A stretch of DNA of 47,150 nucleotides from a virus. The translations under genes and the position numbers were made by a program. The notes under the pieces were generated by a model. It was not told where the DNA came from. It searched no databases and worked only from the letters and a program-made list of their open reading frames with translations. The DNA lies in IMG/VR virus record IMGVR_UViG_3300037246_002174, positions 1 through 47,150 of that record, one strand, 5' to 3'. Positions 16,682-43,847 of this stretch are shown one piece after another; position 1 is the first letter of the stretch; the number at the start of each line of letters is the position of its first letter.

Positions 16682-16699
16682 TGCTTTGTAACATGTTTT
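16682..16699 (+). promoter_or_regulatory. Island upstream element, copy 1
   Basis: TGCTTTGTAACATGTTTT is repeated exactly at 17864-17881 and, with changes, at 20394, 22924, 43375 and 43830. Every copy lies upstream of a plus-strand gene that starts, or restarts within, an island. Confidence 0.5.
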
Positions 16700-16738
16700 A
16701 TATTTGATAATAATAGTAGATTATTCAAATGGATAGAC

Positions 16739-16746
16739 TATCTTTG
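16739..16746 (+). promoter_or_regulatory. -7 box for the island gene at 16791
   Basis: TATCTTTG matches the -7 consensus. The -33 region lacks TTG, which suggests activator dependence. Confidence 0.45.
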
Positions 16747-16790
16747 TATCAACAAAAGAAAAGAAATACTAACTATTAAAAATACTCAAA

Positions 16791-16991
16791 ATGGCTAAGT
16801 TTATAAAATTATCAGAAGTAAAAAACGAACAATTATTTTCTTTCGGTTATTCAGATACCGTTTACAAAATGATAGAAACTAAATGGATAGGGTTGGATTG
16901 TATGGAATACAAGAGTATGATAGAAGAAAAAACATATAGAAGAGATGATTATAAATGCAATTCTAAAGTTCAAATAAGACAATTTTATTAA
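16791..16991 (+). CDS. Small protein, 66 aa, first gene of plus island 1
   Basis: No family recognised. A short beta-rich protein with a basic C-terminus. It heads a plus-strand cassette inserted between two minus-strand blocks. Confidence 0.6.
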   Translation: MAKFIKLSEVKNEQLFSFGYSDTVYKMIETKWIGLDCMEYKSMIEEKTYRRDDYKCNSKVQIRQFY

Positions 16992-16998
16992 CAATAAA

Positions 16999-17012
16999 GG
17001 GGCGAAAGCCCC
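16999..17012 (+). other. GNRA tetraloop hairpin (GGGGC-GAAA-GCCCC)
   Basis: Identical in stem and loop to the minus-strand hairpin at 1471-1484. It lies between the 66-aa and 129-aa genes of the same transcript, with no T tract after it. Confidence 0.65.
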
Positions 17013-17041
17013 AAATATTTAAACTTAAAAAACATAAGGAT

Positions 17042-17431
17042 ATGACACATTTTGACCAACTTGAAGAAAAAACACAAAAGCTTTGCGAAGCTAGAAAAAA
17101 TACAAATGGAAATCTTTCGGAAGACCTGACAATTACTTGCGAAGGTGAACTTTTCTTTTTAACTAACGTATTTAAAGATGGTAGCTTTTTAGGATTCTGG
17201 ACTCATTCGCCTTGGGGGACTTGCCACGATCAAGAACAGGGGTGGGCTGTTTTTTCAAAAGAAATAAAAATGATTTCTTCTTTTGAAACTAAAACGGGCG
17301 GTCAAAGTACTAGTGATGGCTTTGGTGGATTCAGAGAATGGCGAAAAATAGAAACAGAAATTCATGGGAAGTCTAAAAAATTAAAACCTGAATGGGATAA
17401 TGAGAATTTTTGGAAAATAAGTGGGTGTTAA
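17042..17431 (+). CDS. Unknown protein, 129 aa
   Basis: A Trp-rich protein with segments like GFWTHSPWGTCHDQEQGW and a Gly-rich loop (GGQSTSDGFGGF). No domain named. It is in the first plus-strand island, so an accessory or anti-host role is possible. Confidence 0.6.
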   Translation: MTHFDQLEEKTQKLCEARKNTNGNLSEDLTITCEGELFFLTNVFKDGSFLGFWTHSPWGTCHDQEQGWAVFSKEIKMISSFETKTGGQSTSDGFGGFREWRKIETEIHGKSKKLKPEWDNENFWKISGC

Positions 17432-17446
17432 TTTAAATTTATAATA

Positions 17447-17860
17447 ATGGAAAAGTTAGTAATTTTAAGAAAAATAAATTCTCTCAACAATAAGAATTGT
17501 GTTGAATTTGGGATAAACACAAAAATAGCAAATAAGAGCCTTTCTTTTATTGCTAAATGCAGAAAAAAAGCAATTTTAATCTATGGTAATGGGCAATCAC
17601 TAAGATCTGTATTCACAAATCACGGTTTAATATTTAGGTTTAAAACTTTTTCTGAGAATATGGAAAAGGCAACTGAACTAATTAAGTTAGTTGAATCTAC
17701 AACAAGAGGTGGTGCTCGCAAAAATGCGGGTGCACCTTTTAAACAGCCACGATACAGGCATCAAATAAACGTTCCCGATGCCGTATGGAAGGAACTTAAA
17801 CTAAAGTATACGACAGCAGAAATCAACGTTAAGATAAACGCATTTATACTTAGTTTGTAA
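17447..17860 (+). CDS. DNA-binding-like protein with GGARKNAGAP motif, 137 aa
   Basis: Residues 85-100 carry RGGARKNAGAPFK, a version of the GGxRxGAGRP box seen next to RHH domains in phage and plasmid proteins. The following INVPDAVWKELK...INAFILSL looks like a ribbon-helix-helix. It probably binds DNA and may regulate the island. Confidence 0.6.
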   Translation: MEKLVILRKINSLNNKNCVEFGINTKIANKSLSFIAKCRKKAILIYGNGQSLRSVFTNHGLIFRFKTFSENMEKATELIKLVESTTRGGARKNAGAPFKQPRYRHQINVPDAVWKELKLKYTTAEINVKINAFILSL

Positions 17861-17863
17861 AGG

Positions 17864-17881
17864 TGCTTTGTAACATGTTTT
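17864..17881 (+). promoter_or_regulatory. Island upstream element, copy 2
   Basis: Exact copy of the 18-base element at 16682-16699, 71 bases before the gene at 17952. Confidence 0.5.
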
Positions 17882-17951
17882 GAAAAGGTAGTTTGTGAAT
17901 TATTATGAGTTACTTTGTGGGTAATTTAAGTTGTTTATAGCTAACTAATAT

Positions 17952-18299
17952 ATGAATATAATGAGAGAGGTGAAAATAATAAATGATAAGCCAGAAGTTC
18001 AGCCAACTAAAGAGTATAAGAAAATAAAAGAGACTGCCGTTGTCTATCTTATGAAACATAAAAATAGCGATGAGTCTCATTTGTGGTATAAAGCACAATC
18101 TTTTAATTTCTCTAACGAAAAAAGAAAAGAAGAGTGGCGATGGGCATCGCTCTGGAATTCAATTTGCACTAGTGGGAAAAGTTCTTCACTTGAAAAACTG
18201 ATAATGGAAACTCTTAAAGAAGGCCATACAGTAATTGAAAGTGGTTTTGATAGCTATATAAGAGGACTTGATGAAAATGCCAAAAGGCTTAAAATGTAG
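17952..18299 (+). CDS. Unknown protein, 115 aa
   Basis: Polar, Trp/Ser-rich helical protein without a named domain. A second ATG lies at 17961. It ends island 1 and is followed by a strong bidirectional terminator. Confidence 0.6.
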   Translation: MNIMREVKIINDKPEVQPTKEYKKIKETAVVYLMKHKNSDESHLWYKAQSFNFSNEKRKEEWRWASLWNSICTSGKSSSLEKLIMETLKEGHTVIESGFDSYIRGLDENAKRLKM

Positions 18300-18350
18300 G
18301 GTATTATACTTTTTAAAATTACTCACAACAGTTATGTTTATATAACAAAA

Positions 18351-18380
18351 AAAAGAGCAAACCTCACAGTTTGCTCTTTT
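18351..18380. terminator. Strong bidirectional terminator
   Basis: A perfect 12-bp stem (AAAAGAGCAAAC with GTTTGCTCTTTT) and a 6-base loop, between the converging genes 17952-18299 and 18419-18721. Confidence 0.85.
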
Positions 18381-18418
18381 TACTATCTAAATAAACTTTA
18401 ACTCTACTATGAAAAATA

Positions 18419-18721
18419 TTACTTATTTTTTAAATCTTTAACTATATCTTTAACCTTTTCATCTGTTGATTTGCTGAATATTTTTGTTTGATCTACTGTA
18501 TTTTGTATCTTAATAAGACTAGTAGATATAAATAAATCCATTTTGGTTTGTTTTTCTTCTATGGCTTTAATTCTAAGCTCATGCTCTATCGCCTTATCAT
18601 TCATAGACCACTGTCTAGCTTCTAAGGTAGTAAACCATCCTCCTAGTATAAATGCTATAATTATAGCATATTTTACGGTTTTAGCTACTTGAGTCTGTGT
18701 AAATTTAATAACATTATCCAT
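18419..18721 (-). CDS. TM plus coiled-coil protein, 100 aa (lysis-type candidate)
   Basis: One TM helix lies at about residues 17-34 (YAIIIAFILGGWFTTLE), followed by a long charged helix (IEHELRIKAIEEKQTKMDLF). This resembles inner-membrane spanins or holin-associated proteins. It ends the late region, next to a 29-aa TM protein, where lysis genes often lie. The assignment is tentative. Confidence 0.55.
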   Translation of the reverse strand: MDNVIKFTQTQVAKTVKYAIIIAFILGGWFTTLEARQWSMNDKAIEHELRIKAIEEKQTKMDLFISTSLIKIQNTVDQTKIFSKSTDEKVKDIVKDLKNK

Positions 18722-18810
18722 TACTTTTTAAATATTTTTTTTAATATCCATAATGAAAATATCAAGAATAAAGCTATTCCGTACCAAAAAAATGGATTTG
18801 TTAGAAACAT
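18721..18810 (-). CDS. Single-TM microprotein, 29 aa
   Basis: NPFFWYGIALFLIFSLWIL is one membrane helix with a Lys-rich end. Its stop overlaps the next ATG by one base (TAATG). It is a possible holin-like partner of the 100-aa protein. Confidence 0.5.
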   Translation of the reverse strand: MFLTNPFFWYGIALFLIFSLWILKKIFKK

Positions 18811-18828
18811 ATCTTATCTTTTTATTTA

Positions 18829-18858
18829 CAAATGTAAGGTAATTATTTTAATTATCAA
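18829..18858 (-). promoter_or_regulatory. Consensus promoter for the TM protein pair
   Basis: CAAATGTA (18829-18836), exactly 19 bases, CAA (18856-18858). It gives the two small membrane genes expression separate from the baseplate genes. Confidence 0.7.
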
Positions 18859-18873
18859 ACTAAAATAACTATT

Positions 18874-19353
18874 TTAAACTTTTATATTATCAATTTTGCT
18901 ATTGTCAATATCTACATTCACTTGCTGCCTTGTATAACTACCTGCTAACGCTGTAATGGCTGCCTGTATTTTTACAAACTCTGCATTGATGGCTGTATTT
19001 TGAGCCTGCAATCCACTATCAAGAGGTAAAAATTTAACTAAATTATCACCTTTGCCACCAAATTCAACTGTTCCATCATTTTTAAAATACATTGAAAATA
19101 CTTCGCTACCTTCTGAGTTTTGAGCAAAGAAGCGAAGTTCACCAGCTTTTGTAATTTCAGAAGTATAAGTATAGCCAAGTATTAGTCCAACTTCTGAATT
19201 ACTAGTGTCGGAATAAGCCGCTTTCCTGCCCTTTAATGGTTTCGAATCAACACCTTGAGGAAGTATTGCGGTTGCATTTCTCACATCCTTAGTACCGTAA
19301 ATTAATGTTTTCACAAAGTCCACAACCGCCTCTCTTACTGTTCCTAATATCAT
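18874..19353 (-). CDS. Baseplate spike-like protein (Mu gp45 type), 159 aa
   Basis: The early segment (ILPQGVDSKPLKGRKAAY) and the later GELRFFAQNSEGSEVFSMYF with a repeated-strand C-terminus resemble Mu gp45-type spike proteins. Directly upstream, overlapping by 4 bases, is the hub gene, the Mu order P-45. It would form the membrane-piercing tip at the baseplate centre. Confidence 0.6.
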   Translation of the reverse strand: MILGTVREAVVDFVKTLIYGTKDVRNATAILPQGVDSKPLKGRKAAYSDTSNSEVGLILGYTYTSEITKAGELRFFAQNSEGSEVFSMYFKNDGTVEFGGKGDNLVKFLPLDSGLQAQNTAINAEFVKIQAAITALAGSYTRQQVNVDIDNSKIDNIKV

Positions 19354-20354
19354 TTAAATGGATTTTTAATATTGTAATTATCTAAATCATAAACATCTTT
19401 TAAAACGCAAGTTAAATTGTATATTTCACCACTATTTGCATTTCTTGAAATGTCTGTTTGTTCAACAAAAAATAAAGCTGGTTCATTCATTTTTTCTTCA
19501 ATAAAAATTTCAACAATACTGTCTGGTTTGATAAATTGAGTTGTTTTTATTGGAACTTTTATTGATGCAATTTCAGCACTTAATGCCTTTCGTGCAGCTT
19601 CTTTTGACGTAAATCCAGTATCTGAAGTTTGAATTTTAACCATCGGTCTAAATTCTTTACAGAAAGGATTCTTTATTGTAAATTGACCACCATCCTCATT
19701 TCCTTCTGAAGCTTGCGGCATTAATGTAATTTCTGAATGCAAAGATTGTCCATTAAACGTTATGCTTTTATTAAACACGCCATTTTCTGTATTAGAATTA
19801 AAACTCGCCACAGTCGGAAGTTTTGAAATGTTTGGTCTAATAAATAGTAATTCACCTTTTGCCGTATGTGATAAAGCTATATTTCTTTGATTTGCTAATC
19901 TATTTATATAAGCTGCGATTGATTCAGTTATCTTTGCCGTTGTTTGCTTAAAAACCTTATTCATTTGCTCTGTAACAGAACTATCAACAATAAAATTTAA
20001 ATTAAATGGATTAAGTAAATCAGTAACTAATTCATTGAAGTTAAGGTTGTTTTTTTGTAAAGGATAGTTATTTGGTGAAATATTACAATCTTCTAAAATT
20101 CCCGTTTTTGAATAACCTGCAAAATTTTCAACTTCTGGATTAGGTGAGATTTTGAAATTATCATTTAAAATTGTTCCAGTTATTAATAATTCATTATTAT
20201 CATCAAAAATTTCAACTTTATCATAATTCAATACTTTATCTAAAATATTACTTAATGCTGAAAAGCTGAATGTATCTGCTATAGAATTATATTTCAAACT
20301 AATGCTATAGCTCGAAAAATGAAAAAATTCTTTATTATTTATGATAAATTTCAT
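19350..20354 (-). CDS. Baseplate hub protein (Mu gpP / gpD family), 334 aa
   Basis: The protein has the size and domain pattern of phage late-control D / Mu gp44 hubs. N-terminal beta strands come first, then a middle domain with FNELVTDLLNPFNLNFIVDS and IAAYINRLANQRNIALSHT, and a closing barrel domain. It joins the tail tube to the spike. It begins directly after a promoter whose -7 box is 4 bases from the ATG, so its mRNA should be leaderless. Confidence 0.75.
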   Translation of the reverse strand: MKFIINNKEFFHFSSYSISLKYNSIADTFSFSALSNILDKVLNYDKVEIFDDNNELLITGTILNDNFKISPNPEVENFAGYSKTGILEDCNISPNNYPLQKNNLNFNELVTDLLNPFNLNFIVDSSVTEQMNKVFKQTTAKITESIAAYINRLANQRNIALSHTAKGELLFIRPNISKLPTVASFNSNTENGVFNKSITFNGQSLHSEITLMPQASEGNEDGGQFTIKNPFCKEFRPMVKIQTSDTGFTSKEAARKALSAEIASIKVPIKTTQFIKPDSIVEIFIEEKMNEPALFFVEQTDISRNANSGEIYNLTCVLKDVYDLDNYNIKNPFK

Positions 20355-20358
20355 ACAG

Positions 20359-20389
20359 CAAAGTTAATCAATTTTAAAATAAAATGCAA
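20359..20389 (-). promoter_or_regulatory. Late promoter giving a leaderless hub transcript
   Basis: CAAAGTTA (20359-20366), 20 bases, CAA (20387-20389). The -7 box is 4 bases from the start codon at 20354. Confidence 0.6.
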
Positions 20390-20393
20390 AATA

Positions 20394-20411
20394 TGTTTTG
20401 TAGCATGATTT
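20394..20411 (+). promoter_or_regulatory. Island upstream element, copy 3 (diverged)
   Basis: TGTTTTGTAGCATGATTT matches copies 1 and 2 at 15 of 18 positions. It stands between the hub promoter and plus island 2. A TTG (20416-20418) and TAAATTTG (20440-20447) 21 bases apart follow as a possible promoter. The rest of the gap to 20626 holds no gene. Confidence 0.4.
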
Positions 20412-20626
20412 GTAATTGTTTATTTAACGTTTAAATGATTAAATTTGCATATTAATTTCATTAATAAAAAACTTAAATGTGAAACGTTGGATAATACCAT
20501 TTTGTAAACTGATGATATTTCAGTTTGACTATAGTAGTGATAAATATCAAAAAATAATGTCCATATTATTAGCATGGATAAATTTATTGATAGTGATATA
20601 TTTGTTTCTTAATTAAAATAATCAAC

Positions 20627-21142
20627 ATGGAAAAAAATAAAAAGAATAAGCTTAAAATTGAAGTAGAGTTAAACGTAAATGATAGCTTTAAGAGTGTTGT
20701 TGAAGCTTTTAAGGCTTTTGCAGAAAGCAAAAAAAGGATGTTTGGTATTTTAGATGGTAAAAAAGTATTTCTTGTAGGCAATCCTAAAATTGTAAAAATG
20801 GGCTTTCTTAGCGATGTTAAGTGGAATGAAGATAAAAAACAATGGATGGTTGATAACTTAGATTATAATAATTCAGAAATTAAATCCTTACGCGATGATT
20901 TAAATAAGTCTGAACGTGAAAATAGAGAAATTGAACACGAATTTCTTAAAATAGAATCAAAAGCTAAAGAGTTTGAAAATTTAGCCAATAATCGGAAACT
21001 AGAAATTATAGAGTTAAAAGTTGAGTGTTGGGATTTAGTTCGAAAAAATACCGTCTTGATAAAAACTAATGATGAGTATAGAAAAGAGAATGAGTCTCTA
21101 AAAAGTAATACTAATAATATAGAAAAATCTAATTCTATTTAA
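20627..21142 (+). CDS. Coiled-coil protein, 171 aa, plus island 2
   Basis: The N-terminal 75 residues look globular (VEAFKAFAESKKRMFGILDG). Residues 80-165 form a long coiled coil rich in Glu/Asn/Lys. No family is recognised. It is the first of two genes inserted between hub and gpN genes. Confidence 0.6.
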   Translation: MEKNKKNKLKIEVELNVNDSFKSVVEAFKAFAESKKRMFGILDGKKVFLVGNPKIVKMGFLSDVKWNEDKKQWMVDNLDYNNSEIKSLRDDLNKSERENREIEHEFLKIESKAKEFENLANNRKLEIIELKVECWDLVRKNTVLIKTNDEYRKENESLKSNTNNIEKSNSI

Positions 21143-21157
21143 GTAAAAACAACCAAT

Positions 21158-21706
21158 ATGATAATATACAAATGTGATAACTGCGGGTCAGAACATGACT
21201 ATAAAGATAGCCTATTAACAATTGGAACTTTAAATAAAGATTTATTCATTATAAATAACTTGGCTTATTCGAACGGGAATAAGGCTAATTTTTCAGAATT
21301 ACATTATTGCTCTAAAGATTGTTTTGTGGATGATTTCTTTAAGCATGAAGTTGTTAATGAGTCTAAGGCTGTTGTAAAAATGCCTAGTTTAAATATCAGT
21401 AACGAAGATAGTAAAATTGCGTTTATGGGTTGTTTTATTGGCGATTTGGTAAAGGTTCACTTCGAAATAAATAAATCAAAAACATCAACATCTTGTTTTA
21501 CTGCAGAACTTATTGGAATAAATATTGACAAGCAAATCGTTTATTTTAAAAACACAATAAGAGAATCGGCAGCGGTTAATGAGGGTGATTTTGAAAGGGA
21601 GTTCGGTATCATTTCAAGTATGCACGTATTAACTATTAGTGAAATTAAAAACTACAATGACAATATAAAATCCCTCCCTAAACTTAAAGATAACTCTTAT
21701 TCTTAG
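21158..21706 (+). CDS. Zinc-finger-like protein, 182 aa, plus island 2
   Basis: CDNCGSEHDY near residue 6 and YCSKDCF near residue 51 form a likely four-Cys zinc site similar to small phage zinc-ribbon proteins. The rest is a beta-rich domain. Its stop overlaps the end of the convergent gpN gene by 4 bases, with no terminator visible. Confidence 0.6.
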   Translation: MIIYKCDNCGSEHDYKDSLLTIGTLNKDLFIINNLAYSNGNKANFSELHYCSKDCFVDDFFKHEVVNESKAVVKMPSLNISNEDSKIAFMGCFIGDLVKVHFEINKSKTSTSCFTAELIGINIDKQIVYFKNTIRESAAVNEGDFEREFGIISSMHVLTISEIKNYNDNIKSLPKLKDNSYS

Positions 21707-22896
21707 GTGAAATAAACAATAATACGCCCTTTTTTAATTATCGAAAGTTCATCAAGCGAAAGAACATTTGCATTAATGAACTTTTGATAATTCTCATCAC
21801 CTGCACCGAAAAATCTGTGTGCTAAAACAACTGGATTTGAATCACTATCTAAAATAAATTGTCTTTCCTGTTTTGCATTAAATGCAACCTCAAATAAATT
21901 AGCTAAAGTAGTATTTATTAAATTATCTAAATTAAAAGTAGTTTCTGGATTTGGCTCGTAATTCTCACTATCAAAAACCGAAAGCATTGAATTATAAATA
22001 CCTGCAATTATCTCTGAAACTTCTACTATTTCAGATCGAGTTTCATAACTGCCATTTATAGCGACTAATCCAACTTCTGAAACAACAGCCGTTGCGTTTG
22101 CTTCGTATAATATTTTTGCTTGAGAGCTACCATCATTTGTAATAAATATGCTTATTAAATTAGCCGCATTTTGAGCTAAAGATGCAATCTTTGCCTTTAT
22201 ATCTTGAATTATTAAAGAAGGAAAGTTTATTAAATTTTGCGCATCCCTCAAATATCCTTCTGCATTAGATACTATATTTTGTGCTGAGCTTGACGCTTTT
22301 CTTGCTAAATCTTTTAATATAGCTGCCTGCTCTGCTAGTAAAGCTAATTTGCTATAATTTGATTCAATTATATTTACAGAGCTTAACGCTGGTACTGCCA
22401 TTTCAGGGCTTGGAATTCCTAAATTTGCAAACGAGCTGCCTATTACAGTTTCATCAATTTCGCTTTTTAAAACTTCAACATCTTTTTTTGCACTTTGTTC
22501 TTGAATTGGTAATTTTAAAGGGTTTGTTTCCCATAAAACGCCTGTAATCTTTGAAACATTTGGGCTATTTTCATCAAAATTCAAGCTTAATGGCTGCACT
22601 AAATGCTCACCATATTGCGGGTGAGTTAATGTCCACGATCTTGAATCTTTCGAGGATTCAATAAAAGCATTTGCCTGCTCAATATTATCATCACCTTGAA
22701 AGTAAATTTCAATAGGAAAGCGTATTCCTGTGTTTTTCTTTCGGTCAACATAAGTGCCAGCCGTTCCGATAAAATCAAAACCTGTAGTGTTAAAACCTAT
22801 GCTACGTGTTGCTTTTTTCCACAACGGTTTAAAAATAACACCGTCACCTGTTTTTATTTCAAACTGTTTATTTTCTAAATCATTTATCCAACTCAT
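21703..22896 (-). CDS. Tail/DNA circularisation protein (Mu gpN, DNA_circ_N family), 397 aa
   Basis: The first 130 residues (KPLWKKATRSIGFNTTGFDF..., SRSWTLTHPQYGEHLVQPLS) match the DNA circularisation N-terminal family, which in Mu is tail protein N. The rest is helical. The frame opens at an ATG at 22938, but a -7 box (22901-22908) lies within that part. The ATG at 22896 (MSWINDL) is chosen, giving a leaderless message. Confidence 0.75.
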   Translation of the reverse strand: MSWINDLENKQFEIKTGDGVIFKPLWKKATRSIGFNTTGFDFIGTAGTYVDRKKNTGIRFPIEIYFQGDDNIEQANAFIESSKDSRSWTLTHPQYGEHLVQPLSLNFDENSPNVSKITGVLWETNPLKLPIQEQSAKKDVEVLKSEIDETVIGSSFANLGIPSPEMAVPALSSVNIIESNYSKLALLAEQAAILKDLARKASSSAQNIVSNAEGYLRDAQNLINFPSLIIQDIKAKIASLAQNAANLISIFITNDGSSQAKILYEANATAVVSEVGLVAINGSYETRSEIVEVSEIIAGIYNSMLSVFDSENYEPNPETTFNLDNLINTTLANLFEVAFNAKQERQFILDSDSNPVVLAHRFFGAGDENYQKFINANVLSLDELSIIKKGRIIVYFT

Positions 22897-22900
22897 ATTG

Positions 22901-22908
22901 CAAATATA
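22901..22908 (-). promoter_or_regulatory. -7 box 4 bases before the gpN start
   Basis: CAAATATA on the plus strand is TATATTTG on the minus strand. The -33 area (about 22928) falls in the island element at 22924-22941 and lacks TTG on this strand. Confidence 0.5.
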
Positions 22909-22923
22909 CGAAATTTTTATAAA

Positions 22924-22941
22924 TGTGTTGTGAAACATAGT
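22924..22941 (+). promoter_or_regulatory. Island upstream element, copy 4, with likely promoter
   Basis: TGTGTTGTGAAACATAGT matches the 43375 copy at 15 of 18 positions. TTG at 22928-22930 and TATTTTGG at 22951-22958 are 20 bases apart and can start transcription of plus island 3. Confidence 0.45.
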
Positions 22942-23037
22942 TAAATAATGTATTTTGGTTGGTTGTTTTTGTAATTTCGTACTTTAATTTTAATGTTATG
23001 AGTTTTAGAAATATTCACAATTAATAAATAAAAAAAG

Positions 23038-23502
23038 ATGAATAAAGCATTTCAGACTATAAGTGGAAATGGTAAAGGGAATTGCATGCAAGCTGTAATT
23101 GCATCCCTTTTAGATTTAGAGATTGATAAAGTTCCTAATTTCGCAGAACATTTTAATGGTGATTGGGTTCAGGTTAGGAATGATTTTTTAGAGAAATATG
23201 GGTATAAGGAAATTATCATACTTGTAAATCCAAATATAGAAGGGTGGGAAGTATACAAGGATACGGATATATGCTTGTCTAATCTACATAAATATAAAGG
23301 TATTGAAGGCTTCTTTGATGCTTCTGTTGCATCTCCTAAATATTGGGAAAAAGACAAAACTACTCATGCTTTAGTTGTTGATAACAAATGTAATATAGTT
23401 CACGACCCTGAGAAAGATTATCAAAGTTTAGAAAAATATCCAATGGCTGATGAGATTGGATTCAATGGGATTAGACAAGTAGTAATTATTGAAGGTATTT
23501 AA
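23038..23502 (+). CDS. Papain-like fold phage protein (GNC...H...D), 154 aa
   Basis: GKGNCMQAVIASLLDLEID at the N-terminus with Cys16 on a helix, a later THALVVDN with His, and IVHDPEKDY with Asp, fit a cysteine-protease-like (C39/papain) triad. Similar proteins are common in phages, with unknown targets. It may be a protease or deamidase acting on a host protein. It leads island 3, inserted between gpN and tail genes. Confidence 0.6.
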   Translation: MNKAFQTISGNGKGNCMQAVIASLLDLEIDKVPNFAEHFNGDWVQVRNDFLEKYGYKEIIILVNPNIEGWEVYKDTDICLSNLHKYKGIEGFFDASVASPKYWEKDKTTHALVVDNKCNIVHDPEKDYQSLEKYPMADEIGFNGIRQVVIIEGI

Positions 23503-23503
23503 A

Positions 23504-23517
23504 ATTACTCTATAACG
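23504..23517 (+). repeat. Cassette-end repeat ATTACTCTATAACG
   Basis: Follows the stop of the 154-aa gene. It is repeated with one change at 23824-23837 after the stop of the next gene, suggesting modular gene cassettes. Confidence 0.45.
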
Positions 23518-23569
23518 AAAACGACTATACCCAGTTGCGTAAATACAATTAAGACTTAACAAATAGAAA

Positions 23570-23824
23570 ATGACTAAATTTGAAGAAGAATTAAGACCAA
23601 TACAATTGTGGGTAAAGAATAAATTAGAAAAACGAATACCGTATAGTGAAGTCATTACCATTAACATATGCGCTGCACTTATCAAACAGTATAATACAGA
23701 GCAATTGAGTATAGACGCTGTTATGAGTACGTTCAATTGCGAAAATTGCTACGCTCGTAATTTTGACAAAGGTGGATACCCGTGTGTTCTATGTGTGGAT
23801 TTCAATAAACACAAAGCAATTTAA
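23570..23824 (+). CDS. Small Cys-rich protein, 84 aa
   Basis: The C-terminal part has CENCYARNFDKGGYPCVLC, four cysteines in a zinc-finger-like order. Function unknown. It is the second gene of island 3 and ends in the shared 14-base repeat. Confidence 0.6.
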   Translation: MTKFEEELRPIQLWVKNKLEKRIPYSEVITINICAALIKQYNTEQLSIDAVMSTFNCENCYARNFDKGGYPCVLCVDFNKHKAI

Positions 23825-23837
23825 TTACTCAATAACG
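23824..23837 (+). repeat. Cassette-end repeat ATTACTCAATAACG
   Basis: Second copy of the 14-base repeat; a stem-loop (23840-23872) follows. Confidence 0.45.
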
Positions 23838-23839
23838 TA

Positions 23840-23872
23840 AATATTTAATGCGTTTTAATGCATTTAAATATT
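23840..23872 (+). other. Stem-loop with GTTTTAAT loop
   Basis: AATGC (23847-23851) pairs with GCATT (23860-23864), and seven more A/T pairs follow across one bulge. Loop GTTTTAAT matches GTTTGAAT of the stem-loop at 44193-44210. Confidence 0.5.
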
Positions 23873-23898
23873 GTGTTATGATTACAAATTAACCAACA

Positions 23899-24027
23899 AT
23901 GAAAAATAAAAACAAGAAGAAAATCAAACGCAAGAAAGTGATTAAAGAGATAAATGAAATATTGGCTCAAAATAACTCACTAAAACCTTTGTGGGATGAT
24001 ATCACAAGGGAACTAATAAATAAATAA
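23899..24027 (+). CDS. Basic microprotein, 42 aa
   Basis: The first 16 residues are almost all Lys/Arg/Asn, followed by a helical tail ending WDDITRELINK. Its stop abuts the ATG of the next gene. Possibly nucleic-acid binding. Confidence 0.5.
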   Translation: MKNKNKKKIKRKKVIKEINEILAQNNSLKPLWDDITRELINK

Positions 24028-24357
24028 ATGAAAAAAATAAATATAACAATATTGACTGCAATAACAGCAATTATGGTTATTATCAATATGTATTCAATCA
24101 TTAGACATTATGAGTCTAAAGCGATATATTATGAAGGTCTGAGTGACATTAAAGAGCAAATATATAGAATAGATTCAATTAGAGACTCTATGTATCGCAC
24201 TTACCATGTAACTACTGTTGAATCTTTTAACCATGGCTTTTTAATGGGTCTTGATATATATGAAAATAATGATACATTAACATTTTCGGATTTTTCAGAC
24301 GCTTCGTTTGTTTATGAAAATAAGATGGATAGTATTTTTAGTTTAATAATTAAGTAA
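24028..24357 (+). CDS. Single-TM protein, 109 aa
   Basis: An N-terminal TM helix (INITILTAITAIMVIINMYSI) is followed by a polar domain that should lie outside the cytoplasm. It could act in superinfection exclusion; no family is recognised. Confidence 0.55.
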   Translation: MKKINITILTAITAIMVIINMYSIIRHYESKAIYYEGLSDIKEQIYRIDSIRDSMYRTYHVTTVESFNHGFLMGLDIYENNDTLTFSDFSDASFVYENKMDSIFSLIIK

Positions 24358-24372
24358 AAAATAAATAAGATT

Positions 24373-24732
24373 ATGCTAAGATATTTTAATGAAGAGATTC
24401 GAGATTTATTTATAAAAAGAGGTGAGTCTTTGATTAAGAAAGATAAAGCAAAGCAAATAGAAAAGAAAATCAAGGTAACTACAATAAAACTAGGCAAGGA
24501 AACACGTCATTTTAATAATAATCAGACTGTTTTTGTTATTCAAATGACAGGTGATCAAACTGCCCTATGTCGTGGCAAATACAGAGGCAAATATAAATGG
24601 TGTAACGCATGGGTGAAGTGGGATAATAATCCTAATTTACATAAAATAAAAGAAATTGAAATTGCAGAAAGTGATTATAATAATATATTTAACGAGCCAA
24701 AAATAAATAAACGATATGAAAAAAGGATTTAA
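24373..24732 (+). CDS. Unknown basic protein, 119 aa
   Basis: Lys-rich helix at the N-terminus, then a beta domain (QTVFVIQMTGDQTALCRGKY). No motif recognised. It overlaps the next start by 17 bases. Confidence 0.55.
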   Translation: MLRYFNEEIRDLFIKRGESLIKKDKAKQIEKKIKVTTIKLGKETRHFNNNQTVFVIQMTGDQTALCRGKYRGKYKWCNAWVKWDNNPNLHKIKEIEIAESDYNNIFNEPKINKRYEKRI

Positions 24733-25006
24733 TGAAATACTAGTCATAGCTAAACACGAACCAAACGGTGCTGCTTTAATGGCTTTGGATCAAAAAATAA
24801 TAAGTACAGCTCAATTTAAAGAAGATGTAATTATTGATTTGTGGAATAAGATGAAACAAGGCGTTATGGATCAAATATATGTAAAGAAAACAGAAACAAA
24901 TGGAAGGATTGTGTATTCTGCTCAATTGAGAGCTTTAGTTCCAAATCAGGACAATAACGACAAAGAAATATGTATTACGCATCCACTTTTTAGAGTTAAT
25001 TTATAA
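24716..25006 (+). CDS. Unknown protein, 96 aa
   Basis: Mixed alpha/beta protein, no family. It overlaps the preceding gene by 17 bases and is the penultimate gene of island 3. Confidence 0.55.
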   Translation: MKKGFNEILVIAKHEPNGAALMALDQKIISTAQFKEDVIIDLWNKMKQGVMDQIYVKKTETNGRIVYSAQLRALVPNQDNNDKEICITHPLFRVNL

Positions 25007-25018
25007 AAACAAAACATC

Positions 25019-25228
25019 ATGATAGCAGTATTTACAAAAACGCAACAACATTTCGATGAATTGAAGTTTTTACCTAAACGAAATTTTATTCGAATATCAA
25101 ATATAAATAAATTACAATTTAAACAATTTTCGGGAATAATACTTGTGAAAGGGTTCTATGAAGATGAATTAGTAAATGAAGCTTATGAGCTTCTTAGGAA
25201 TAAACAGCCTGAATTATTCGACCATTAA
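25019..25228 (+). CDS. Unknown protein, 69 aa, last gene of island 3
   Basis: Compact alpha/beta protein ending ELLRNKQPELFDH. It ends 5 bases before the convergent tail gene with no terminator, so readthrough antisense to the tail genes is possible. Confidence 0.55.
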   Translation: MIAVFTKTQQHFDELKFLPKRNFIRISNINKLQFKQFSGIILVKGFYEDELVNEAYELLRNKQPELFDH

Positions 25229-25233
25229 TTAAT

Positions 25234-25968: not shown

Positions 25969-25984
25969 ACTTTAAAAGTAAAAA

Positions 25985-26007: not shown

Positions 26008-26024
26008 CTAAAAACAACATATGA

Positions 26025-26956: not shown

Positions 26957-26962
26957 GTTGTT

Positions 26963-34510: not shown

Positions 34511-34523
34511 ATCTTATATATTT

Positions 34524-36050: not shown

Positions 36051-36065
36051 ATTTTTTTATTTTTT

Positions 36066-36668: not shown

Positions 36669-37036
36669 TATGGTTTATAAGTTCCTAAAGTTAAAACAAA
36701 TATACCTAAAGTTTCAGAAGGAAAAACACTATCAATTTGATAAGTTTTAACTACTTGATTTACATCAGCATAAGAAACTAAAACATCAACTAAATTAACT
36801 TCATTATTTCCATTTCTTGTAGGAAATTCCGCATCTAATAAAGTTTGTTCACTAACCGAAACATGTGCATTTTCTGAATTTATTGGTACACCTTCATCGT
36901 TAAAATCCAAATGATGTCTACTAGCAACTGCTTTCACTGTCTTAACTATTGAACCATTATTAAAAGTTACATCAACAGACCAATCATTTTCCAAGATTTG
37001 TTGAGCGTCAGAAACTGCAATTGCTAGTAAATTCAT
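36668..37036 (-). CDS. Head-tail connector candidate, 122 aa
   Basis: A beta-rich protein with no motif, coupled by one base to the previous gene, between capsid and tail terminator genes. The place suggests an FII-like head-tail stopper. Confidence 0.5.
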   Translation of the reverse strand: MNLLAIAVSDAQQILENDWSVDVTFNNGSIVKTVKAVASRHHLDFNDEGVPINSENAHVSVSEQTLLDAEFPTRNGNNEVNLVDVLVSYADVNQVVKTYQIDSVFPSETLGIFVLTLGTYKP

Positions 37037-37038
37037 TT

Positions 37039-37230
37039 TTATTTTTTAGCTACTGTTTTTTTCTTATCTTCAACTGGCTCTAAAAAACCAGCTTTTGCAG
37101 CGCTTTCAACTTCTGCGGCAAATGCTTTGTAATTACCTTCAGTATCGAAAATTTGAGGATTTTTACAATCCTTCTTGATTAATTTATTCCCAATTACTAC
37201 ATTAAGGGATTTTAATATATATTTTGGCAT
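37039..37230 (-). CDS. Small structural-type protein, 63 aa
   Basis: A short basic protein after the capsid gene, with a Lys/Ala-rich tail (EDKKKTVAKK). The function is unknown; a head or connector role fits its place. Confidence 0.55.
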   Translation of the reverse strand: MPKYILKSLNVVIGNKLIKKDCKNPQIFDTEGNYKAFAAEVESAAKAGFLEPVEDKKKTVAKK

Positions 37231-37302
37231 CTTTTTATATTTTTATAATAAAAATAGTCTAAAATTAATCAAACTATCTTTATTTTTATTGTTTAAAATT
37301 AA

Positions 37303-38370: not shown

Positions 38371-38382
38371 TTTTTTTAAATT

Positions 38383-38802
38383 TTATTGGTTATCTACACC
38401 AGTCATTTCAGTACTTGGAGTTAAAATTAAGCCTAAATAATTTAAATAAGCTCTTACGGTTCTTTGAAATCCTGCGGGACCCACTAGAGTATCTAAGGTT
38501 GTAGCATCGCTAAAGTTAATTAGATTTTCATTAACTTTGCCTTTGTTTACAAATTTTAAATCTTGATCAGTACCATCAACAACAGTAACATCGCAATGTG
38601 CTATTCCAAAAGGAATTTCAGAACCATCACCAGCGCCAGCCTCTAACGGAATTATTTTTAGAGTTGCAGCAATTTGTCCAACTACAATACCTTTCGGTAA
38701 AACTACATCGGCACCAGAAGCGGCAACATTTCCACCATCAAAAAAGTTCTTACCTAGTAATATTTTTTGAGTATCTCTATTTGTAATATTCGGATTAGAC
38801 AT
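38383..38802 (-). CDS. Head decoration protein, lambda gpD-like, 139 aa
   Basis: VVLPKGIVVGQIAATLKIIP, IPFGIAHCDVTV and a hydrophobic strand near the end match the HDPD/gpD decoration family. It sits between the protease/scaffold and capsid genes as in lambda, and overlaps the protease gene by 8 bases. It would stabilise the expanded capsid. Confidence 0.65.
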   Translation of the reverse strand: MSNPNITNRDTQKILLGKNFFDGGNVAASGADVVLPKGIVVGQIAATLKIIPLEAGAGDGSEIPFGIAHCDVTVVDGTDQDLKFVNKGKVNENLINFSDATTLDTLVGPAGFQRTVRAYLNYLGLILTPSTEMTGVDNQ

Positions 38803-39163
38803 TTTTAACCTCCTCCTTTAAATTCAAACCAGCTTTCACTTCTTTATCAAAAGAGTCCGCTTTAATTTGAGCTTCTGTTTTGTCTACTGCGTCAGAACTA
38901 GTCTGAACGTCTTCAATTTGATTTTCTGTCGAAGCTGTTAAATGCCCTTTTTTAAGTGCAGAAACCTGCATTTTAGATACATCTAATTGATTCATACTTT
39001 TGCCTGATTCGATTCCAGCTTTTACAGCTACAGAATCAACTTCTTGCCAAGCATTCCAAGCCTGAACTCTAATATTCTCCCCCTCTACACCTATAGCTTC
39101 GCCTTCTGCAAGAACTTCAGCGAATACCTGAGGGTATTGAGATTTAAATTCTTTTTTATTCAT
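38795..39163 (-). CDS. Possible nested scaffold protein (Nu3-like), 122 aa
   Basis: In-frame ATG at 39163 with an A-rich leader begins the Glu-rich C-terminal part of the protease gene. In lambda the equivalent nested Nu3 is the scaffold. Independent translation is inferred only. Confidence 0.4.
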   Translation of the reverse strand: MNKKEFKSQYPQVFAEVLAEGEAIGVEGENIRVQAWNAWQEVDSVAVKAGIESGKSMNQLDVSKMQVSALKKGHLTASTENQIEDVQTSSDAVDKTEAQIKADSFDKEVKAGLNLKEEVKNV

Positions 39164-39835
39164 TGTTTCTTGAGTTGTATTATTATTGTTTGTAATTTCT
39201 TTTTTTGATTCAATTTTTGTTTCAATCACTTCAATGTCTTCGATATCTAAAGAAGCAGCAAATTTCAATTCCATTTCAGAATAAATTTTGCTTTTTAAAG
39301 AAGCTGTTCTTAATGCTTTTTTAGTTTTAGAATCTAAAGGCTCTATTTTATCAATAAGCTTAATTTTTAAAGCTTCTTTTGCAGTGAAATAAAAATCAAG
39401 ACGTTCTTTTGCTTCAAATATTTTTGAAAATTTAACGCCTTTCATTTCTTCAAATGCTTTTACATCAATTTTTGATTCTAGTTTTTTCCTAAAATCTTTG
39501 TTTAGATTGTCAAGCGAAACTTGCTCTTCATCCGTAGAAACCCAACCATCAGCTCTATGAATCATAAATTGAGCTAAAGGTGAAGAAATCACTTCATCAA
39601 AATAAGGTAACATAATTACACCCATCGAAGCTACAATCCCATCAGGTCTCGCAATCTTTTTTCCTTTATGCTCTGTAATTACCTTTATCATAGCATTGCC
39701 AGAATAAACACCACCTCCGCCTGTATTTAGACGGACGACTAAGTCTTTATCTTGATCGGCTGCCATAACTTCCTTAACAAAAGTTTCAGCTACCCAGCTA
39801 TAAATACCCGTATATAGTAAAATTACGTTTTCCAT
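38795..39835 (-). CDS. ClpP-type head maturation protease with C-terminal scaffold, 346 aa
   Basis: Residues 1-190 form an S49/S14-like protease with Ser70 in IVASMG and His93 in MIHRAD. A Glu-rich C-terminal part follows. An internal ATG at 39163 (Met225, MNKKEFKSQYPQ) could start a 122-aa scaffold, as lambda gpC contains Nu3. It has its own leaderless promoter at 39841-39870. Confidence 0.82.
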   Translation of the reverse strand: MENVILLYTGIYSWVAETFVKEVMAADQDKDLVVRLNTGGGGVYSGNAMIKVITEHKGKKIARPDGIVASMGVIMLPYFDEVISSPLAQFMIHRADGWVSTDEEQVSLDNLNKDFRKKLESKIDVKAFEEMKGVKFSKIFEAKERLDFYFTAKEALKIKLIDKIEPLDSKTKKALRTASLKSKIYSEMELKFAASLDIEDIEVIETKIESKKEITNNNNTTQETMNKKEFKSQYPQVFAEVLAEGEAIGVEGENIRVQAWNAWQEVDSVAVKAGIESGKSMNQLDVSKMQVSALKKGHLTASTENQIEDVQTSSDAVDKTEAQIKADSFDKEVKAGLNLKEEVKNV

Positions 39836-39840
39836 TGTTG

Positions 39841-39870
39841 CAAATTTAGTGAAAATGTTTTAAAACACAA
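39841..39870 (-). promoter_or_regulatory. Late promoter giving a leaderless protease transcript
   Basis: CAAATTTA (39841-39848), 19 bases, CAA (39868-39870). The start codon at 39835 is 5 bases away. The spacer holds a minus-strand copy of the island dyad (39852-39869, TGTTTTAAAACA core). Confidence 0.7.
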
Positions 39871-39872
39871 AA

Positions 39873-40115
39873 TTAAATTTGTTTTTCTTGATTATTTTGT
39901 TTTGGAATTTGCATTTCTGCAAACTTTGAAATCGTTTTTGGGGCAAAAGCAGCCGTTAAAATTAAGATATGAAACTCAAAATTATCAAAACCACCTGCAA
40001 AAACTACTTGATAAGTGCTTATTACTATCCAAAATAGTAAAATTATCAAAGTATTTAACCTTGTTGAACTTTTATATCCTGGTCTTGTTTCTAAAAAACC
40101 TGTTTTTTCTGACAT
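39873..40115 (-). CDS. Two-TM protein, 80 aa (holin-like)
   Basis: Hydrophobic segments lie at about residues 20-38 (LNTLIILLFWIVISTYQVV) and 46-58, with a basic N-terminus and a Gln/Asn/Lys tail. This is a holin-like layout, but its place between portal and protease genes is unusual. Function unproven. Confidence 0.5.
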   Translation of the reverse strand: MSEKTGFLETRPGYKSSTRLNTLIILLFWIVISTYQVVFAGGFDNFEFHILILTAAFAPKTISKFAEMQIPKQNNQEKQI

Positions 40116-40126
40116 AATTTATATAT

Positions 40127-41404
40127 TTATCTTTGTCCTAAGAAAATAATTTCAAAACTCATATCGCTAATTGTAGGATCTCGATCTGAGCTTTCATTTT
40201 TCATTCTAAATGAAATATAATCACCAACTGCACACTCACCTGTAGCTATTACTGTTGAGTTTCCGACTGCAACAGACGTAGTTGACCTACTTACTGAATT
40301 AATTGCTTCATTATTTTTAAATACAGCTATTCGCCAAACATCCGACTGATTATTTCCAATATAAGAGCTATTAAAAGCTATTGTGATAAAACCAGCAACA
40401 TCAACTCTTATACTATCTCCTATTCTTGTGTATCCAATTTGCTCTACCAACGCCATGGCTGAAATGGGTATTTTTACATAAACATCCTGAGTAGCCAATG
40501 CCAGTATTTGATTATATTCTGAAGTGTCGCCAGAAATGTGAGGAGAAGGCGTTAAATTTGGTGCACCTGGATTAATGAAAATTTGACCACTGTCAGCATC
40601 TGCATAAATAATTTGTCCTAGCCTTCTACTCCATTTTGGTGGAATTGGTGGAATATCTGTAATAAGTCCATTTGAACCAACAAAAATTTCAACTCCATCT
40701 GAAAACGATGAGAAATCAAGGTTATTAACGGGTCCTAAAAGTGTAACTATTCCATGTTTATTAGGTGGAATATCCACCGTAGCCATAGCGACACCTGATA
40801 AACTATCAAGTGATCCGTTACCAGCTTTCGCTATTGTTGGTATAATTGATCCATTTTGAAAACTACCAGTGCCACGAACCACCGTACCATCGAAAATGGT
40901 ATCCGCGGTGTTGTTATAAACTCGAATTACAAATTCGTATCCTAATTGGTGCGTAAATCCCTCGATATCATTAGTAAAAGTTAGCGCTTGTGTGAAATTT
41001 TCATATTGTAATCTCCCATTTGAAAATGTAGAAATGTCAATTGGATTGAAAATAATACTATCCAAATTATCTAAACCTTCACCTTCGACATATAGCAAAC
41101 GCCAGTTATTGTCATCTATCCAATTTGCTTCTAAAACATTTACGCCTTCAAAGCGCTTAGATACATAACGACCCGTTTCAACCCAAGTCACAACCATTCC
41201 TAAAGATCTTTTATCTTCTGGAATTGCATCTCGTGACACTTTTGAGGTTACTTGTTGATAACCACCTCTTAATTGATCTGTATAAATTAGCGCTTTTGAT
41301 GAATCAAAATGCTCTAAATTTTCTGGAAATTTCTGTTGGCTATTCGCTTTTTGTAGGCTCAGGCTCAATGCCAAAACCAGCATTATCAATAATTTCTTGC
41401 TCAT
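40127..41404 (-). CDS. Exported fibre-like protein with signal peptide, 425 aa
   Basis: Residues 1-22 (MSKKLLIMLVLALSLSLQKA, then NS) form a Sec signal peptide with a likely cut before QQ. The mature part resembles Bacteroidota phage fibre domains (SSKALIYTDQLRGGYQQV, IPEDKRSLGMVVTW) and ends in a jelly-roll-like module (RIGDSIRVDVAGFITIAF). The first 65 bases overlap the portal gene in another frame. A secreted form is unusual for a virion protein. Confidence 0.65.
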   Translation of the reverse strand: MSKKLLIMLVLALSLSLQKANSQQKFPENLEHFDSSKALIYTDQLRGGYQQVTSKVSRDAIPEDKRSLGMVVTWVETGRYVSKRFEGVNVLEANWIDDNNWRLLYVEGEGLDNLDSIIFNPIDISTFSNGRLQYENFTQALTFTNDIEGFTHQLGYEFVIRVYNNTADTIFDGTVVRGTGSFQNGSIIPTIAKAGNGSLDSLSGVAMATVDIPPNKHGIVTLLGPVNNLDFSSFSDGVEIFVGSNGLITDIPPIPPKWSRRLGQIIYADADSGQIFINPGAPNLTPSPHISGDTSEYNQILALATQDVYVKIPISAMALVEQIGYTRIGDSIRVDVAGFITIAFNSSYIGNNQSDVWRIAVFKNNEAINSVSRSTTSVAVGNSTVIATGECAVGDYISFRMKNESSDRDPTISDMSFEIIFLGQR

Positions 41405-43001
41405 TTTTCGATTTTTCTATATTTGTGTTAAATTCACCTGAATTAATAAATTCCATTGCTTGTTCGACTGTTTTAAGCGGAACATTTGCGTATTTATCGC
41501 CTAATAATGTTCTTAATGCTTTAGCTTCTTTTAGCGGGTCGATATGGTCAACTGTTTTTCCTGTAAATCTTGCTTTTCTAAATGCTGCAAGCTTCATAAA
41601 ATCACCACTAATTAAAGCCTCAAAATATCCATCAACTTCAATTTTTCCAGTAATTATTTGAAAATCCAACCAAAAATTATAAAAAGGTGAGTAGAATTGT
41701 CTATTTAAAAGAATCATTCTATCAACCATCATTTTATATTGCCATGCCATTAATGCAGCTCTACTTGCTGAATAGCTGCCTCCAAATTTATCAGTCGCAA
41801 TTTCAGGCGGCATTCCAAACGTAGTATAAAGAACACCTGAATTAACGCCAAAAAATTTCTCAAAATTTATATCTGTTCCTTGTTGAGTTTTCTTTAAACT
41901 GGCACCAACTGGCAAGTTATAAACACGCCTTTTTGTCGAGAGTGCTACTTTTGGAGCTAAAGCTTCACAATCTGCATAGCTATCTTGCATTTGCTGTACT
42001 CTTTCAGTACCAGATGATTGAGCTATTAGTGCATCATTAGGATCTTCACCATCTGAATAACTTTCATGCTCGAAAGTAAAAGGAACGTTTGCCAAATCTT
42101 CAGCGGCTGTAATTGTAGCATCTTTGTATCGGTCTATTTTTGCGGCTGTTTCAAGTAAAACGGCTAACAAACTTAATCCTCTTTTACTGTCAAGTTTATA
42201 TTTTAATCCCAAAAATAACCAAGCTTGTTTCCTTCCTGTTTTTTGGTGTTTTGCTAAAATTCTTTGTGAGGTAAAATCTTCTTGCATTACATAAAATGCA
42301 ATTCTTTCACCTCTTTTATTAAATTCAATTCCTTCAATTATCTTATTTCCACGCTTTGTGGCTTGTGTAAAAAATTGACTTGAATAAATTGGATTTTTAA
42401 TATGTCCACCGTCAATTATTTGCATTGTCGCTTTTCCGTCAATAAATCTCGAAACACAAAGCACATCACCAGCCATAACGGCATTTGTCAGCGCTTCGGC
42501 TGCAATTGCATGTAACGATTCATTATTAGAATAAGAGCTTTCCTCTATTTCTGCAAATAAACGGAAATTAGTCTCTACACTCTTAACATAAGCTTTTGTT
42601 TGTTCGGGTGTTAATCCTATTAATTCGGGAATTGGTTCAGCTTGTAATTTCAATCCTTCGCCAATTATCCAAAGTACATATTTTTTAACTACATTTTGGA
42701 TAATGTCAGTTTTTATATATGCTTCCCAAGTTCTTTTTCTTATAGTTTGATAATCTAAAAAGAAATCGTAAGCATTGCCTAACTCACCCCAAGTTTTTTC
42801 ACCGTTAAACGGGATTCCAATTAAACTACTATAAGAATGATAATTTGCAAGGATTTTTCTTTTTCGAGGTTGTTTGTTAGAGATATCAATTTCCAAATTC
42901 GGCTTATTATTAGTTTTCAATTTAACTAAATCTCTAGTTTTTTGATTAGCTCTTTGCCTAGCTCTATCAATTGCTGCTTTATTTTTCTTACCTCTACTCA
43001 T
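41340..43001 (-). CDS. Portal protein, lambda gpB family, 553 aa
   Basis: RTWEAYIKTDIIQNVVKKYV, AEALTNAVMAGDVLCVSRF, RGLSLLAVLLETAAKIDRYK and FGMPPEIATDKFGGSYSASR match lambda gpB-type portals. It forms the dodecameric DNA channel at the capsid vertex. The gpW-like gene overlaps its start by 4 bases. Confidence 0.88.
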   Translation of the reverse strand: MSRGKKNKAAIDRARQRANQKTRDLVKLKTNNKPNLEIDISNKQPRKRKILANYHSYSSLIGIPFNGEKTWGELGNAYDFFLDYQTIRKRTWEAYIKTDIIQNVVKKYVLWIIGEGLKLQAEPIPELIGLTPEQTKAYVKSVETNFRLFAEIEESSYSNNESLHAIAAEALTNAVMAGDVLCVSRFIDGKATMQIIDGGHIKNPIYSSQFFTQATKRGNKIIEGIEFNKRGERIAFYVMQEDFTSQRILAKHQKTGRKQAWLFLGLKYKLDSKRGLSLLAVLLETAAKIDRYKDATITAAEDLANVPFTFEHESYSDGEDPNDALIAQSSGTERVQQMQDSYADCEALAPKVALSTKRRVYNLPVGASLKKTQQGTDINFEKFFGVNSGVLYTTFGMPPEIATDKFGGSYSASRAALMAWQYKMMVDRMILLNRQFYSPFYNFWLDFQIITGKIEVDGYFEALISGDFMKLAAFRKARFTGKTVDHIDPLKEAKALRTLLGDKYANVPLKTVEQAMEFINSGEFNTNIEKSKNEQEIIDNAGFGIEPEPTKSE

Positions 43002-43288
43002 GACAAACCACGCCTCCCTCGCATTATTGAAACTCTACCTTTTAATTGGTTTTCTATTTTTATAGCTTGTTTTTCATAAGCTTCAATTGCTTCAGCTAAA
43101 ATAGTAGGATTATTATATTTTGTAGAAATATCAACTTGTCCATCATTTATTTTATATTCTGCAATATTAGATGTTGCAATAACTTCAATTTGCTTATCAA
43201 GCAAACCGTCAATAATTAACCTAATCTTAGTTAATTTCTCAACTTTAGTTGTTGCGCTTTGTATAAATTGTGGAATTGTACATGACAT
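42998..43288 (-). CDS. gpW-like head-tail joining protein, 96 aa
   Basis: The position between terminase and portal and the size match lambda gpW, which joins head and tail. The sequence itself gives little support. It starts 8 bases from a -7 box, so the transcript is nearly leaderless. Confidence 0.5.
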   Translation of the reverse strand: MSCTIPQFIQSATTKVEKLTKIRLIIDGLLDKQIEVIATSNIAEYKINDGQVDISTKYNNPTILAEAIEAYEKQAIKIENQLKGRVSIMRGRRGLS

Positions 43289-43295
43289 ATAGTTG

Positions 43296-43326
43296 CAAAA
43301 ATAATTTATTTTATTGAATTTTACAA
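43296..43326 (-). promoter_or_regulatory. Late promoter for gpW-portal
   Basis: CAAAAATA (43296-43303), 20 bases, CAA (43324-43326), with the -7 box 7 bases from the ATG at 43288. Confidence 0.6.
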
Positions 43327-43337
43327 ATAAACAAATG

Positions 43338-43383
43338 TTTTTGTGTGTTTTTGAGCATGTTTTTGTGTTTTTGGTGTGTTTTT
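43338..43383. repeat. Phased T-tracts (five runs of TTTTT)
   Basis: Runs start at 43338, 43348, 43360, 43368 and 43379, spaced 10, 12, 8 and 11 bases, close to one helical turn. They lie between divergent promoters and should bend the DNA. Confidence 0.5.
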
Positions 43384-43392
43384 AAACATAAT
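43375..43392 (+). promoter_or_regulatory. Island upstream element, copy 5
   Basis: TGTGTTTTTAAACATAAT is exactly repeated at 43830-43847. TGTTT and AAACA arms form a dyad. Confidence 0.55.
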
Positions 43393-43474
43393 CATAAATA
43401 GTATATTTAAATTATTAATGATTATTTTGCGAGTAAATAACGAAAATACACTGTTGAATTAATAAAGTTAAAAA

Positions 43475-43822
43475 ATGGAAGAATTATTGATAGCTATAAA
43501 ATTAAGAAGGAAATATAATAAGATGAAATTTTCTGAATTTATAGAAGAATTTGAAAAATGGGCTAATATTAAGGTTCCAGAAAAAGCAATAAAAGAATGG
43601 CAATTTTCAGGATTGAATAATGTTGATTTTTTAACTTGTGAATATTTGTCTGATTTTGGATTGAATATTAAAATTTGTCCTATTTGTGATATTTCTATTT
43701 TGCATAAAAACGGAAATTGCAAAGGATGTGCAAAAGAAATTTGCGTATCTTGTAAGATAGAAGAAAAGAGTTTTGGAAGTGACTATTGTGGTAAGTGTAT
43801 AGACGATGGAAATTATAAATAA
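43475..43822 (+). CDS. Zinc-finger protein, 115 aa, plus island 4
   Basis: Residues 67-110 have CPICD, CKGCAKEICVSC and CGKCI, likely two zinc sites. The N-terminal 65 residues are helical with charged ends. No family is named. It is inserted between terminase and gpW genes on the opposite strand. Confidence 0.65.
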   Translation: MEELLIAIKLRRKYNKMKFSEFIEEFEKWANIKVPEKAIKEWQFSGLNNVDFLTCEYLSDFGLNIKICPICDISILHKNGNCKGCAKEICVSCKIEEKSFGSDYCGKCIDDGNYK

Positions 43823-43829
43823 CATTTAA

Positions 43830-43847
43830 TGTGTTTTTAAACATAAT
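43830..43847 (+). promoter_or_regulatory. Island upstream element, copy 6
   Basis: Exact copy of the element at 43375-43392, 49 bases before the gene at 43897. Confidence 0.55.

Follow-up and report, generated by a model that had tools for sequence, protein, structure and literature searches.

A palindromic RTGTT-N4-AACAY element at fixed distances from phage promoters as a candidate operator of one regulator

Introduction

Do the short, related repeats that recur in front of genes in one phage genome form a single regulatory signal, and at which promoters would it act? The window examined here, IMGVR_UViG_3300037246_002174, is a whole IMG/VR virus record of 47,150 bases with a GC content of 30%. 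Its genes include those for a contractile tail (sheath, hub and baseplate), portal, head protease and terminase, which are distantly related to genes of Flavobacterium columnare phage FCL-2; the late genes are on the minus strand, and a tyrosine integrase is encoded at 12021-12944. A sequence-only reading had described seven 18-base copies, most of them ahead of plus-strand gene islands, and proposed that one phage regulator or phage-specific signal could govern the accessory islands together with some of the late operon. A search covering part of the literature returned no papers on gene co-ordination by Bacteroidota phages.

Results

One palindrome, RTGTT-N4-AACAY, covered all of the copies and defined 11 sites in the record, namely the seven reported earlier, each of which was recovered in its place, and four new ones. 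The core TGTT-N4-AACA carried no more than one mismatch at any site, and the purine/pyrimidine flanks were present at all sites except one. Two pairs of copies given as exact repeats (16682 and 17864; 43375 and 43830) were indeed identical. The 18-base frame did not survive, as it shifted by two bases between two sub-families, which made the copies look like two sets; the true unit is TGTT-N4-AACA with R/Y flanks. Copies of the first type began two bases 5' of the dyad (dyads at 22926, 43377, 43832 and 39856), and those of the second (16682, 17864 and 20394) were one-mismatch dyads in the other register, so aligned that we dropped the idea of a separate family. The sites overlooked earlier were 3129, 4102 and 10565, found by exact matching, and 43346, found with a symmetric matrix. 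Since the dyad is symmetric, calling the seventh copy 'reversed' has no meaning; its location inside the protease promoter was correct.

Repeats of this kind could arise by chance in a genome with 30% GC and then be picked out by eye, and the raw count is compatible with that reading, as the entire window held 7 exact dyads versus 2.3 expected (rank 15 among dyads), which is weak evidence when taken alone. Within intergenic DNA, the same 7 exact dyads compared with 0.57 expected, and an equally extreme dyad was seen in just 0.5% of 200 shuffles. A symmetric, 14-base matrix found 11 sites scoring at least 13.8 bits in the window, all of them intergenic, with the next score (9.3) falling within a gene, and each site omitted in a leave-one-out analysis still ranked in the top 11. 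An equal frequency inside genes had been set beforehand as the observation that would count against the element; with 11 of 11 sites intergenic, the scan does not refute it.

The dyads were placed at a fixed distance from promoter cores. In F. psychrophilum the -7 box, TAnnTTTG, occupies -12 to -5, and a TAnnTTGY box type is also known in Flavobacterium (PMC9723704). At nine sites, a -7 box began exactly 34 bases past the palindrome (five exact TAnnTTTG, four weaker matches), which from the position of the box puts the dyad at about -58 to -47, with its centre near -52.5. Five of the 30 intergenic TAnnTTTG boxes had a dyad at exactly 34 nt, compared with two at the next-best offset. For ten dyads, offset 34 gave 5 exact and 8 one-mismatch boxes, versus averages of 0.08 and 0.41 for the remaining offsets, and 0 of 20,000 random site sets reached this result in a permutation that used the maximum over offsets, the 34-nt rule having been noticed post hoc. 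The five exact -7 boxes conform to the Bacteroidota sigma-A promoter layout, in which TTTG/TTG lies ~19–20 nt further upstream; TTTG was found 20 nt upstream in two of these five promoters and was weaker in the other three.

Perfect boxes at 34 nt were found for four dyads reading left and one reading right. Dyad TGTTTTGTAACA (3129..3140, minus) precedes TAAATTTG (3094-3087, minus), with a -33 TTTTG present, and the first transcribed feature thereafter is a tRNA-like gene (2714-2809, minus). Dyad TGTTATCTAACA (4102..4113, minus) precedes TATTTTTG (4067-4060, minus) and an operon starting with gene 3799-4038, and dyad TGTTTAATAACA (10565..10576, minus) precedes TAAATTTG (10530-10523, minus) and an operon starting with gene 10234-10497. 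The dyad at 16682..16693, which reads TGTTACAAAGCA on the minus strand, precedes TATTTTTG (16647-16640, minus) and gene 16326-16610, and on the plus strand it also lies 45 nt upstream of TATCTTTG (16739) and gene 16791. Reading right, dyad TGTTTTGTAGCA (20394..20405, plus) precedes TAAATTTG (20440-20447, plus) and the island at 20627-21706. The weaker 34-nt boxes all follow plus-strand dyads: TGCTTTGTAACA (17864..17875) precedes TTACTTTG (17910-17917) and gene 17952-18299; TGTTGTGAAACA (22926..22937) precedes TAATTTCG (22972-22979) and the island at 23038-25228; TGTTTTTAAACA (43377..43388) precedes TATTTTGC (43423-43430), a box of the TAnnTTGY type, and gene 43475-43822; and a second TGTTTTTAAACA (43832..43843) precedes TAAATTTA (43878-43885) and gene 43897-44175, with TATATTGC at 24 nt as an alternative box. 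The earlier view that the copies precede plus-strand islands is too narrow, since the promoters at 3094, 4067, 10530 and 16647 are perfect 34-nt promoters on the minus strand; minus-strand operons of the left arm are the clearest examples of the arrangement.

Other placements brought the dyad close to, or into, a promoter core. Dyad TGTTTTAAAACA (39856..39867, minus), which is not a 34-nt site, lies between the -33 TTTG and the -7 box TAAATTTG (39848, 7 nt away) of the head-maturation protease gene (38795-39835). Two of the 34-nt sites abut or overlap divergent baseplate-hub promoters: on the minus strand, the 20394 dyad is 27 nt upstream of TAACTTTG (20366; hub gene 19350-20354), and the 22926 dyad is 17 nt upstream of TATATTTG (22908; hub gene 21703-22896), where it overlaps the hub -33 region. 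The automatic start of the latter gene (21703-22938) is 42 nt too early; the family match runs from residue 15 onward, which places the start at 22896, just past the TATATTTG box, and makes the seeming overlap of the gene with dyad 22926 an artefact of the too-early ATG. The remaining site, a one-mismatch dyad TGTTTTTGAGCA (43346..43357, minus), lies 31 bp from the neighbouring site at 43377 and 42 nt upstream of TATTTTTG (43303, minus), the promoter of the portal operon.

The matrix scan showed that the sites are absent from most related phages. This record matched the 34-nt pattern 8 times, 5 of them exactly, whereas 47 related records together gave 7 one-mismatch and 0 exact matches; most other relatives gave 0–3 matrix hits with at most one intergenic, and relative G001 gave 9 hits, 4 of them intergenic. 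Applied blind to relative G011 (IMGVR_UViG_3300009169_000034), the window matrix gave 6 hits, of which 5 were intergenic dyads. Three of these were exactly 45 nt before the box of early operons, one helical turn more than in the window; because their spacers are alike these promoters may be duplicates, but their N4 centres differ while the arms are fixed. A fourth dyad belongs to the G011 head-protease promoter, at 7 nt from its -7 box, so that both gene and distance are as in the window. In the 150 nt ahead of the gene that leads the portal operon, the motif was present in 5 of 67 independent relatives versus 0.17 expected (p about 1e-6), and the mirror pattern was present in none of the 67. 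The fixed spacing and this out-of-sample recurrence, in addition to the restriction to intergenic DNA, refute the chance explanation, to which we attach next to no credence. An equivalent dyad-box layout built on a different half-site was sought in 24 relatives and none was convincing. We also searched viral contigs with the strict 34-nt promoter pattern; the five matches were roughly what chance would give by a rough estimate, and were dropped as evidence.

Spacing varied between phages by about one helical turn at a time. Upstream distances of 43–45 nt were found in relatives G001, L030 and L062, and phage G277, which has no clear homologues with the window phage, had sites at 34, 45 and 56 nt; it was selected through one 45-nt site, and the 34- and 56-nt sites came without selection. 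Spacings of 34, 45 and 56 nt correspond to centres at -52.5, -63.5 and -74.5, and steps of about one turn suggest contact with polymerase from one helix face. The portal promoter has its dyad at 42 nt in the window and 43 nt in L062, both upstream, and overlapping at 13 nt in G011, which indicates that a strict division into 'early on, late off' is too simple.

Two further arrangements were noted in other phages. In L170, an unplaced phage contig, a dyad at 2921-2932 lies 34 nt before a promoter whose gene, on the plus strand, encodes a small lipoprotein and adjoins a ClpP-type head protease gene; this contig was found by the pattern itself and was excluded from evidence. In the relative L008 (20189-20266, equivalent to G001 21814-21891), TGTTGCATAACAT occurs four times in tandem with 22-bp spacing immediately 5' of a tail gene, an array that resembles a strong operator array.

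A search for the binding protein among the RHH/HTH genes of the phage had been suggested; the proteins scanned showed no recognisable HTH, Ogr or other known regulator family. Early and accessory proteins had no Mor/C homologue domain in Pfam scans, a search of the record with PF04606 (the Ogr/Delta zinc-finger activator) gave no match, and PHROGs and PDB sequence searches gave nothing usable. The products of 590-1030 and 11544-11768 looked HTH-like by eye only; HTH_3 gave no match, single-sequence structure models of both were too poor for use, and the matrix placed no dyad in the promoter region of either gene. Homologue searches with early proteins returned almost nothing, and the early genes yielded no relatives; among early proteins common to the window and G011, the best was 4117-4422 (E 7.5e-5), and these are candidates only.

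Discussion

The 11 RTGTT-N4-AACAY dyads are probably operators of one dimeric regulator, itself probably phage-borne, which would probably activate from upstream sites and possibly repress from sites that overlap a promoter; we infer protein binding, its sign and a phage origin, activation versus repression being read from geometry only. At nine promoters the dimer would sit just upstream of the -33 region, and in relatives one helical turn further out, so that it could always meet the RNA polymerase of the host with the same face. From there it could recruit polymerase to promoters with often weak core boxes, and so switch on left-arm operons as well as accessory islands, whichever strand they occupy. 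In the promoter of the head protease, a dimer between the -33 and -7 boxes would instead block polymerase, and the hub-gene promoter (22908) would be overlapped likewise. The original proposal, that one phage-specific signal acts on accessory islands and on some of the late operon, has good support from the discrete intergenic set and the fixed 34-nt spacing, and from the same dyad at the protease promoter and portal operon of relatives; its regulator was not found.

Because geometry alone cannot fix the sign, the main rival is that the same operator serves repression throughout, under a CI-like lysogeny repressor that blocks polymerase where it overlaps and represses by contact from in-phase upstream sites, the regulon being the silent set of the prophage. 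The integrase at 12021-12944 points to a temperate lifestyle, divergent genes flank several of the sites, other sites overlap the promoters of the protease and a hub gene, and G277, the unrelated phage that bears the sites, has a gene that is CI-like HTH by eye. However, nine sites stand clear of the core promoter, all at the same distance, and from phage to phage this distance changes by whole turns, as is usual for activators. Moreover, repressors normally control their own gene, and no dyad was found at the integrase promoter (11965) or at the promoters of 11544-11768, the small gene that is possibly HTH by eye. We consider repression throughout unlikely.

Alternatively, the phages could exploit a host transcription factor whose sites have the CRP/FNR geometry. 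Class I sites of FNR and CRP have two 5-base half-sites separated by a 4-base gap and show helical phasing of the upstream site, and the dyads here share both the 5-N4-5 layout and the phasing, with centres (-52.5/-63.5) resembling those of class I activator sites. The site also recurs in phages with almost no common proteins (the window phage and G277). The 42–45-nt pattern was in mild excess across 99 Bacteroidota genomes (26 matches versus 12 for the mirror), which leaves room for a host factor; 120 Flavobacteriaceae genomes gave no excess (449 dyad-pattern versus 475 mirror matches) and no 34-nt peak among the 150 matches listed. A host regulon was thus not detected in the Flavobacteriaceae genomes, and no host genome had more than three matches at 42–45 nt, versus nine promoters in 47 kb here. 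RTGTT is not the half-site of FNR or CRP, and no CRP/FNR protein was seen in the phage. Overall, a host factor appears improbable.

Among known systems, the element resembles P2 Ogr/Delta and Mu Mor/C in layout, and by the tests made it is not a member of either family. The late promoters that depend on P2 Ogr/Delta have a dyad centred near -55 with an N12 spacer. As in P2, a TGT...ACA dyad stands at a fixed distance 5' of a phage-wide set of promoters (nine at 34 nt, centred near -52.5), but the spacer here is N4, the -7 box is of the Bacteroidota kind, no Ogr family protein was found, and early/accessory genes are served besides late ones. In Mu, the dimeric activator binds a dyad that precedes or overlaps the -35 region, the Mor dyad extending from -51 to -36 with its centre at -43.5 (PMC4287176); here the dyad and its position differ, sites are far more numerous, and no Mor-like protein was recognised. 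In phi29, one phage-encoded system, p4/p6, both activates and represses promoters (PMC3100819), a duality that is only proposed for the window phage. The phi29 system has one control region, in contrast to eleven scattered sites here, and the binding sequences differ.

More broadly, and tentatively, a family of regulators not described before may bind RTGTT-N4-AACAY in Bacteroidota phages, with position setting the action: activation from helically phased slots (-52.5, -63.5, -74.5) and repression from a slot in the core promoter. Such regulators would co-ordinate structural genes with accessory islands and left-arm operons, and would recur in phages that have few other genes in common. The analysis provides the operator and the promoter positions to the base, as well as a spacing rule that can be falsified; accessory islands dispersed in the late operon become predictable as members of one regulon, and a 14-bp probe (GTGTTTTTAAACAT) makes a biochemical hunt for the regulator feasible.

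Two gene products downstream of dyad promoters have features of their own. Gene 43475-43822 (plus) encodes a small protein with CxxC pairs (CPIC, CKGC, CVSC and CGKC), for which zinc binding is possible. The feature at 2714-2809 (minus), downstream of the 3094 promoter, was called as a tRNA by Rfam (41 bits) and missed by ARAGORN, and by eye its anticodon region contains an inserted hairpin (TTGTAAAG...CTTTACAA).
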